Positions 38,260 through 40,494 of a stretch of 64,000 nt of DNA are shown here, piece by piece (the stretch's first letter is position 1; each line of letters begins with the position of its first letter). The notes beneath the pieces were generated by a model. The model had not been told where the DNA came from. It worked only from the letters and a program-made list of their open reading frames with translations, and made no database searches. Source of the stretch: an uncultured bacterium (GTDB lineage Bacteria > Hydrogenedentota > Hydrogenedentia > Hydrogenedentales > CAILVY01); assembly GCA_937951485.1 (NCBI GenBank), contig CALEDJ010000031.1, forward strand, positions 53,337 through 117,336, in the 5' to 3' direction. The translations under genes were made by a program, and so were the position numbers.

Positions 38260-38518
38260 GATCCTCCTTTGATTGATTCTGTAATTGCAGAAACCGATCC
38301 GCGCATTTCCGCCTTTGAAAACAGGACGATGAAAATCAGACGGGATTCAAGCACTCGCACTCATTGGCTATGAATTCATCGTATCACCTGAATTTCCTCA
38401 TGTCAACGCACAAAATTCAGCATATCGCACGATATTTGAAACTATCACCGGAAATATGGCATACCATTGCCGGATATTCGGATGGAATTATCCATATTAT
38501 AACGATCGAAGGCAACCC
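38260..38518. other. divergent intergenic region upstream of the Rrf2-mtaB pair
   Basis: 259 AT-rich bases between the pseudopilin (minus) and the Rrf2 gene (plus). It holds the small palindrome described at 38482-38495. No gene is supported. Confidence 0.5.
38482..38495. promoter_or_regulatory. small inverted repeat, candidate Rrf2 operator
   Basis: ATGGA and TCCAT flank the four bases ATTA with no mismatch, 24 bases before the ATG of the Rrf2 gene. Rrf2 regulators bind AT-rich palindromes and often control their own operon, so autoregulation is plausible. This is inference; the repeat is short. Confidence 0.35.
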
Positions 38519-39124
38519 ATGCGACTGTTTTCCAAAGGCGCGGAATATGCCATTCGCGCACTGATGATTGCCATTGAGCAGGGCCTGGACCGGCGTATTG
38601 CAGCGCCGGAAATCTGCGCGCGCGCGGATATTCCCGAAGCGTTTGCTCGCAAAGGTTTTCAGCAACTGGTACACGCAGGGATTCTGGAAGCTGTGCGCGG
38701 TCCGGGGGGCGGTTACCGTTTGTGTGCCGCGCCGGCGAAGGTGTCGCTTTGGAACATCATCACCGCCATGGACGGCTTTGAACAGTTTGGACGGTGTCCG
38801 CTGGGGGTGGGCTGTGAAAAGGTGCTGCATGCAGCCGACAGGAAAAAGTTTTTGTGCGAATCGTGTACGGACTGTCATCCGCGTTGCGGCTATGAAAAAA
38901 CCTGTCCCTTGCATGACCTGTGGCGCGATGTGCGGCGCACGGTTATCCCCCGGTTGGCGAATACAACCCTTCAGGACATTGTTGATCGCTACGCATCCGC
39001 GGGCGAAAAAGCCATGGAATTCGACGCCTCTATTGCGGCTGCATCGCAATTCCCCCCGGATCACCCGAGAGATAAGAGGAAAGCACCTTTACGCCCCAAA
39101 CCGAATACGAACAGGAAGAAATAA
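38519..39124 (+). CDS. Rrf2 family regulator with ferredoxin-like cysteine motif
   Basis: 201 residues. The winged helix of the Rrf2 family is clear: MRLFSKGAEYAIRALMIAIE, IAAPEICARADIPEAFARKG and VRGPGGGYRLCAAPAKV. IscR-type members use three Cys at C-x5-C-x5-C. Here C93 and C99 keep the first spacing, then comes an insert with C113-x2-C116-x2-C119-x3-C123 and C129, the spacing of a ferredoxin [4Fe-4S] site. A cluster-sensing repressor or activator is likely. A Lys-rich tail ends the protein. AAGG is six bases before the ATG. Its stop overlaps the mtaB start by one base (TAATG), so both are translated together, and the regulator probably answers to redox or cluster state for the methyltransferase. 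Confidence 0.88.
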   Translation: MRLFSKGAEYAIRALMIAIEQGLDRRIAAPEICARADIPEAFARKGFQQLVHAGILEAVRGPGGGYRLCAAPAKVSLWNIITAMDGFEQFGRCPLGVGCEKVLHAADRKKFLCESCTDCHPRCGYEKTCPLHDLWRDVRRTVIPRLANTTLQDIVDRYASAGEKAMEFDASIAAASQFPPDHPRDKRKAPLRPKPNTNRKK

Positions 39125-40494
39125 TGGCCAAGCGATTTACCGGGCTGACAATTGAGAATCCAGATGACCTGATTTTCGGCAGCGCGCCCCATCCTGTGCA
39201 AATCACCCCTGAGATAGTGGCGGGCGGGGGTGAAACCCTTCCTGAATTGAACTACACATTGCCGCATGGCTCAGAGGTGAGCGAAGCAACGCTGGACAAG
39301 GTCCGGAATACTTATCGTCAGATGGCGGCAAGCGCATTGCTGCGGGCGATTGAACTGGAAATCCCCCGGTGCGTTATCGAGATTGAACTGGTATTCGAGA
39401 TGACCCTGAACCCGGAATGGGGTGAGGCGATCATCCGGGATACGCGGGAAATTATCGAGGAATACAAGGAGCAGGGCGTTCACACGGCGTTGCGCGCGAC
39501 TGTTGCAGACATCCGCGATCGCACCCGTCCCCCGCGCAACCGGAGTGGCGAAGAGACGGCGCTGGTGCTGGAGTCCTTTGAACGGTGCGCACCGCATGCG
39601 GACATCCTGTCAATTGAGAGCACAGGCGGCAAGGAGGTGTCGGACGAGGCCCTGCTGATGTGTGATATCGGCGGAGTGACCTTCGCACTTGGGCAACTGG
39701 GTTCCAACGACATGGAATTCTTGTGGAGCCGCATCGTCGCGATTGCGGAGAAACACCGCAAGGTGGCGGGCGGTGACGCGGCCTGCGGCTTCGCCAATAC
39801 CGCCATGCAACTGGCGCGGCAGCGCATGGTGCCGAAAGTGCTGGCGGCGGTGGTGCGCGCCGTGGGCGCGGCGCGTTCGCTGGTCGCCGTGGAATGCGGT
39901 GCGCGGGGTCCGGACAAGGACTGCGCCTACGAAGGCCCGATGATCAAGGCAATCGCCGGCATTCCGATCGCCATGGAAGGCAAATCGGCGGCCTGCGCCC
40001 ATTCCAGCCACATCGGCAATGTGGCCATGTGCTGCTGCGATTTGTGGAGCAATGAATCCACGCCCTATACGCAGTTGTTCGGCGGATTCACGCCAGCGGT
40101 CAGCCTGGAAGAACTGTGGTATGACTGTAAACTGATGAACGAAGCCCTGCGCGCAGGGCATGCGCAAGTATTGCAGCGGCTTCTTGCCGGTTCCGATGCG
40201 CGCAACAGCGCCGAGGCGCTCATGCTGACCCCGGAATCCGCCATCCGCATCGCCCGCGCCATCATTTCCTCGACCGACTATGCGGAACGCGCGGCGAACG
40301 CCGCCCGAGAGGCCATTGCGATCATCGAAGAGGCGGCCCAATCCGGCGCATTGACCATTGCGGCGCGCGAAGCACCGTTTCTGGATAGATTCAAGGCGGA
40401 CCTGGAACACTTTGCGGCGCTTGGCGATGACATAACGGACCACTATGCCGCGATGTATCCCGGAAAATTCATTCCGAAGGAATACGGCCTGTGA
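39124..40494 (+). CDS. mtaB: methanol:corrinoid methyltransferase (MtaB family)
   Basis: 456 residues, close to the roughly 460 of archaeal MtaB. MtaB moves the methyl of methanol to the cobalt of the corrinoid protein MtaC, using a zinc ion. Identity with Methanosarcina MtaB is visible throughout: YTLPEINY-like LPELNYTLP, SIESTGGKEV, NTAM, APRSLVA-like AARSLVAVE, DKDCAYE, GIPIAMEGKSAACAHSS, and CCCDLWSNES. The three zinc ligands known for MtaB correspond to E165, C221 and C267 here. A related substrate instead of methanol is possible. No corrinoid gene is in the window. It is convergent with the isomerase-DUF1080 gene three bases away. Confidence 0.88.
   Translation: MAKRFTGLTIENPDDLIFGSAPHPVQITPEIVAGGGETLPELNYTLPHGSEVSEATLDKVRNTYRQMAASALLRAIELEIPRCVIEIELVFEMTLNPEWGEAIIRDTREIIEEYKEQGVHTALRATVADIRDRTRPPRNRSGEETALVLESFERCAPHADILSIESTGGKEVSDEALLMCDIGGVTFALGQLGSNDMEFLWSRIVAIAEKHRKVAGGDAACGFANTAMQLARQRMVPKVLAAVVRAVGAARSLVAVECGARGPDKDCAYEGPMIKAIAGIPIAMEGKSAACAHSSHIGNVAMCCCDLWSNESTPYTQLFGGFTPAVSLEELWYDCKLMNEALRAGHAQVLQRLLAGSDARNSAEALMLTPESAIRIARAIISSTDYAERAANAAREAIAIIEEAAQSGALTIAAREAPFLDRFKADLEHFAALGDDITDHYAAMYPGKFIPKEYGL

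Follow-up and report, generated by a model that had tools for sequence, protein, structure and literature searches.

Among Fe-S sensors, the Rrf2 regulators are a textbook case. Their signal is believed to be set by the residues that hold the cluster and by the contact with DNA of the turn between the first two cluster cysteines (Cys1-Cys2 turn). The stretch of DNA analysed here (64 kb, hereafter the window) comes from an uncultured bacterium of the phylum Hydrogenedentota and carries a gene for a cysteine-rich Rrf2 protein directly upstream of an mtaB homologue. Which of the cysteines could hold a cluster, and does the regulator act as a switch for mtaB?

The rrf2-mtaB gene pair

The following features define the pair:

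38519..39124, + strand: rrf2, encoding a 201-aa winged-helix regulator of the Rrf2 family
39124..40494, + strand: mtaB, encoding a homologue of methanol:corrinoid methyltransferase subunit B
39113..39126, + strand: AGGA ribosome-binding-like site and TAA/ATG overlap, read from the sequence
38260..38518, no strand assigned: intergenic DNA that separates rrf2 from the divergent pilin-like DUF1559 gene in the ORF map, the expected place of promoter and operator

The one-base overlap reported in the preliminary description is present: the stop codon TAA (39122-39124) and the start codon ATG (39124-39126) have base 39124 in common, and AGGA is found at 39113-39116 within the 3' end of rrf2. Translation from the ATG at 38519 gives the protein of 201 aa. 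This start is likelier than the alternative in-frame ATG upstream at 38456, since the relatives begin with M-x-[LF]-[FY]-S-K. The pair stands alone: it is preceded by the divergent DUF1559 gene and followed by a convergent TIM-barrel/3-keto-disaccharide hydrolase gene. We take it to be a putative two-gene operon, as part of the best reading given below and with the same, about even, confidence. The promoter and terminator scan gave no sigma70-like promoter or useful terminator on the + strand of the window. The best 15-mer common to the upstream regions of the window and of G043, the second genome with such a pair, matches at 13/15 positions (AATTATSSATATTAT, 38486-38500); this is at chance level (33 of 200 shuffles reach the same) and represents no significant operator motif. 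In the operator search, the upstream regions of mtaC had nothing in common with that of rrf2-mtaB. The regulator ends in a basic C-terminal tail (residues 181-201, 39059-39121), PRDKRKAPLRPKPNTNRKK; Lys/Arg-rich tails also end several Rrf2 relatives that lack the insert described below.

The mtaB product matches Pfam PF12176 (E=4.4e-155), and its residues E165, C221 and C267 align with Glu164, Cys220 and Cys269 of 2i2x_A, which we take to be zinc ligands. It scores 452 bits versus a cut-off of 720 for the NCBIfam equivalog NF040651, so the protein is better called MtaB-like, and methanol as its substrate is not certain. The gene is the single MtaB homologue gene of its genome. The partner MtaC is encoded on contig C11 of the same genome (G000:C11), together with URO-D and homocysteine methyltransferase genes; it shares 66% identity with the MtaC that G042 encodes in an operon. 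Likewise, mtaC and mtaB of G043 are on different contigs. Both genomes with the rrf2-mtaB pair thus have mtaB apart from mtaC, unlike most relatives: the same clade has ten other mtaB loci, and at eight of these mtaC lies with the gene, usually together with URO-D and homocysteine methyltransferase genes. In Hydrogenedentota, mtaB is often part of an operon in which a homocysteine S-methyltransferase gene, two URO-D genes and mtaC are also found, as observed at L069, L070, L071, L073, L074, L076, L077 and L078. Gene content suggests that the mtaB-mtaC-URO-D operon of Hydrogenedentota is a methanol-to-methionine or methyl-transfer module. In the 96% complete G009 genome, URO-D/mtaC genes are present (L104, C9) and MtaB was not found. 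A gene of the AraC family adjoins mtaB at four loci (L064, L066, L067 and L080); wherever the tree could place mtaB, those with an AraC-type neighbour belong to a second, distant mtaB clade, in which such a neighbour is frequent.

Cysteines of the regulator and the insert

The regulator belongs to the Rrf2 family (PF02082, E=5.6e-27) and passes the cut-off of TIGR00738 rrf2_super (82.0 vs 73.3). It stays below those of the NCBIfam equivalogs IscR (60.1/207.6 bits), NsrR (23.3/182), RirA (48.2/193) and CymR (36.9/195). The best Foldseek matches of its AF2 model are RsrR, CymR, IscR and NsrR. Model confidence (pLDDT), obtained with a four-row alignment, is about 80-94 across residues 1-90 and below 50 at residues 100-120, and the model supports no ligand geometry for the insert. 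Three conserved cysteines after the wing, by which cluster-binding Rrf2 proteins are recognized, are found as C93, C123 and C129, with the first spacing broken by an insert:

38795..38797, + strand: C93, canonical cluster Cys1, the same in every canonical relative and every insert-bearing protein
38810..38878, + strand: 23-residue insert, residues 98-120, with C99, C113, C116 and C119 (profile alignment)
38885..38887, + strand: C123, canonical cluster Cys2 (C-G), by match to the family motif
38903..38905, + strand: C129, canonical cluster Cys3 (C-P-L-H), by match to the family motif

The cysteines of the protein are at positions 33, 69, 93, 99, 113, 116, 119, 123 and 129. Those named in the preliminary description, C129 included, are therefore where it placed them, and C-x2-C-x2-C-x3-C is literally present, a pattern that 0.031% of residue-shuffled versions of the protein also contain. 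Nearly all related Rrf2 proteins, drawn from genomes of Hydrogenedentota (68) and Omnitrophota (384), are free of the insert, and 48 such relatives were used for the profile. The insert, which separates canonical Cys1 from Cys2, is missing in 48/48 of them, and all carry the family motif, C-x6-C-x5-C-P-[LIM]-H in short form; after the third Cys it has a small or hydrophobic residue, then [LIMFV] and then H. The proposal that C93 and C99 are the first two IscR-type cysteines has to be corrected, as the motif maps to C93, C123 and C129 and C99 lies inside the insert. As a candidate for canonical Cys2, C99 is ruled out by the match to C-G-x4-C-P-[LIM]-H at C123/C129. The spacing C116-x6-C123-x5-C129 repeats the canonical one, which makes C116 a possible substitute for Cys1. 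More than one set of three or four cysteines could bind a cluster, a choice that the sequence does not decide.

An insert at the same place was found in four other proteins. The Hydrogenedentota genomes G043 (SLFT01000387) and G009 (JAJRTN010000109) have one each, and the other two are from G622, which belongs to a different phylum. The idea of a dedicated ferredoxin-type [4Fe-4S] insert was not supported by this comparison: the ferredoxin spacing occurs in the window's protein only and is not conserved, because C119 is private to that protein. With C-x2-C-x2-C-x3-C in 1/5 insert-bearing homologues, a conserved site of the ferredoxin type is ruled out. What recurs, in 4/5 of them, is a pattern of six cysteines, C-x5-7-C-x6-13-C-x2-C-x6-9-C-x5-C-P-x-H. 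The individual spacings are 5-13-2-2-3-5 in the window's protein, 7-6-2-9-5 in that of G043, 5-11-2-6-5 in both G622 proteins and 5-6-7-3-2-5 in that of G009.

A second change accompanies the insert. Cys8 is present in 50/50 aligned insert-free relatives, and the five insert-bearing proteins have A, A, S, S and S at its position. All five keep the C...C-x5-C-P-[LIM]-H motif, its His and a Trp. E9 of the window's protein aligns with Asp8 of ScNsrR by way of a one-residue gap; in one insert-bearing protein this position is R. In ScNsrR, the [4Fe-4S] cluster is held by three cysteines of one subunit and by Asp8 of the other as fourth ligand (PMC5411485), and the Cys93-Cys99 loop meets DNA, where it faces the minor groove in the centre of the operator (PMC9338935). 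The cluster of RirA was stabilized by an added fourth cysteine ligand (PMC11138216). As the Cys1-Cys2 turn is DNA-facing in NsrR, the insert would lie within the cluster loop that meets DNA. With Cys8 gone from all five insert-bearing proteins, the insert would most likely serve to replace the lost ligand by one from the same subunit, with an insert cysteine taking over from Cys8.

Distribution of the insert and its association with mtaB

Insert-bearing Rrf2 proteins are rare: genome searches found 5 genes in 4 genomes and two phyla, and a pattern scan of genome contigs gave 4 loci. Sampling 386 genomes across the domain brought in one more, G622 with its two genes, around which two further searches returned zero additional insert-bearing proteins. 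No further homologue of this kind was found in viral contigs, and a plasmid search gave matches at 27-39% identity only. Among the loci read in the 384 Omnitrophota genomes there were insert-free relatives only. At L059 (JAACEL010000095.1; genome G054, of the window's order according to the genome search), an Rrf2-like frame holds stop codons. In the tree, the regulators of the window and G043 are sisters (support 99/95), and a branch of support 100/99 parts insert-bearing from insert-free proteins. A single clade of all five is neither shown nor rejected by the AU test (p=0.085). The outgroup branch is very long, and the tree therefore does not polarize gain versus loss of the insert.

An Rrf2 gene lies directly upstream of mtaB in two of the 21 mtaB-bearing Hydrogenedentota genomes, the window's and G043, at intergenic distances of -1 and 21 bases, respectively. 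These genomes belong to different families, and the flanks around the pair differ. Their MtaBs are mutually nearest by tree path, but without a supported pairing. The suggestion of a dedicated Rrf2 switch for mtaB can be kept in part: a cysteine-rich Rrf2 gene upstream of mtaB recurs in G043, with sister regulators, but the insert is not specific to mtaB. The gene follows two of the five insert-bearing regulators, these sisters, and not the other three, a mixed result for the conserved association that the preliminary description made its test. In G009 a nucleoside hydrolase gene is downstream of the regulator and mtaB is not adjacent. The first of the two G622 genes (G622a) is followed by a gene for a FAD-type protein (read by eye, without Pfam match) and has a glycyl-radical enzyme gene a few genes upstream, and the second (G622b) is followed by a gene for an NHL-repeat protein. 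From these three genes, the insert appears to be older or broader than the link with mtaB.

The insert-free relatives in Hydrogenedentota and Omnitrophota are 39-56% identical to the window's regulator across the first 97 residues and have in common with it the three-Cys motif, C33 and C-P-[LIM]-H. They differ from it in carrying Cys8, in lacking the insert and in having genes for nitrate reduction, molybdenum-cofactor synthesis or NO repair nearby. Nitrate-reductase, molybdenum-cofactor or NO-repair genes are found near 12/15 insert-free loci, which are not phylogenetically independent, versus 0/26 controls, window included. The genes counted were narG and its cytochrome c neighbour, nrfH, RIC/hemerythrin, moaA, mobA and the molybdate transporter gene; NCBIfam confirms NarG, NrfH, RIC and MoaA. 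The insert-free gene lies beside narG at L106, L107, L110, L112, L113, L114 and L115, with nrfH and mobA at L060, with mobA and a molybdate transporter gene at L086, and with hemerythrin-DUF438 or RIC genes at L105 and L108. The window's own genome also has an insert-free relative (C25), adjoining mobA and a molybdate transporter gene. The same neighbourhood search found zero nitrate or NO genes in the window. The insert-free proteins with Cys8 are thus probably an NsrR-like regulator family of nitrate/NO functions in Hydrogenedentota and Omnitrophota.

A putative Fe-S repressor and its known counterparts

Our preferred reading, to which we give a probability of roughly 0.5, is that the protein is an NsrR/IscR-like Fe-S repressor that controls its own rrf2-mtaB operon. 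This repression model draws on knowledge of the family and on gene order. In the Rrf2 dimer, C93, C123 and C129 would probably bind an Fe-S cluster, and with the cluster intact the operon would be repressed by its own product. Were the cluster lost or changed, through low iron, oxygen, NO or a redox shift, mtaB would be released from repression. The insert would lengthen the operator-facing Cys1-Cys2 turn and add extra thiols. One of its cysteines could fill the ligand place of Cys8, and the remaining ones could tune cluster stability or hold a second metal.

Alternatively, the insert could form a site of its own (C99, C113, C116, C119), either for structural zinc or for a second Fe-S cluster, beside an ordinary three-Cys cluster. 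The insert cysteines would be suited to this, being four in the proteins of the window and G009, three plus a His in that of G043 and three in each of those of G622, with a CxxC pair in 4/5. We nevertheless regard a separate site as unlikely, since the loss of Cys8 in all five proteins would be left unexplained; moreover, the C119 place is empty in the G622 proteins, with their three insert cysteines, so that a four-Cys site is not general. The fact that the full C...C-x5-C-P-[LIM]-H motif is kept with its His and Trp in 5/5 proteins, as a cluster site predicts, makes a cluster-free thiol-disulfide or electrophile switch, similar to CymR or SifR, quite improbable, even if vicinal cysteines are many and the CymR fold was matched well. 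Rrf2 proteins without a cluster do exist, SifR being an example (PMC9218516).

It could also be that the regulator targets other genes, such as those for nitrate/NO functions, and that mtaB is merely next in the transcript. This would fit with the narG, nrfH, RIC, moaA and mobA neighbours of the insert-free relatives, with the three insert-bearing genes that lack mtaB, and with the sister relationship of the two mtaB-linked regulators, which makes them one event. Such an incidental link is rather improbable, as the pair is kept in two families despite different flanks and the window is free of nitrate and NO genes. A bolder version of the Fe-S repressor is conceivable, although we hold it doubtful: a distinct six-Cys Rrf2 lineage that has lost Cys8, in which the DNA-facing cysteine-rich loop would ligate a rearranged cluster or second metal, the metal state would shape the operator contact, and the regulator would have been wired to an mtaC-detached mtaB in two Hydrogenedentota.

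What stands out most is the changed ligand set predicted in the DNA-facing loop, ahead of both the ferredoxin motif and the coupling with mtaB. A lineage that has lost an invariant cysteine and gained several in the Cys1-Cys2 turn offers a ready-made test of the idea that ligands and turn determine the signal. If rrf2 controls mtaB, methyl groups in this uncultured phylum would enter corrinoid metabolism through a redox or iron gate; no description of such a gate was found in the literature searched.

Among characterized regulators, NsrR of S. coelicolor ([4Fe-4S]; PMC5411485, PMC9338935) resembles the window's protein in its Rrf2 fold and in three cysteines in the same region. Its Asp8 is matched by an acidic residue and its Arg12 by Arg13, and the nitrate and NO genes adjoining the insert-free relatives add to the likeness. 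Unlike NsrR, the window's protein has the 23-residue cysteine-rich insert in the Cys1-Cys2 turn and mtaB as partner gene, and it reaches only 23 vs 182 bits for the NsrR equivalog. With E. coli IscR ([2Fe-2S]) it shares the N-terminal winged helix, the GPGGGY wing and the motif end C-x5-C-[PL]-x-H, but it differs in the insert and in its IscR equivalog score (60 vs 207 bits). No isc or suf genes were found near rrf2. The Msr proteins of Methanosarcina, presumably a different, archaeal regulator family from Rrf2, resemble our reading in the transcriptional control of methanol methyltransferase genes. They regulate mtaCB, and several genes control the mtaCB operons (PMC11218639). The AraC-family genes mentioned above also place a regulator next to mtaB, but not one of the Rrf2 family. 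Compared with these systems, the window's regulator is a rare variant of the known Rrf2 switch rather than a new kind of switch.
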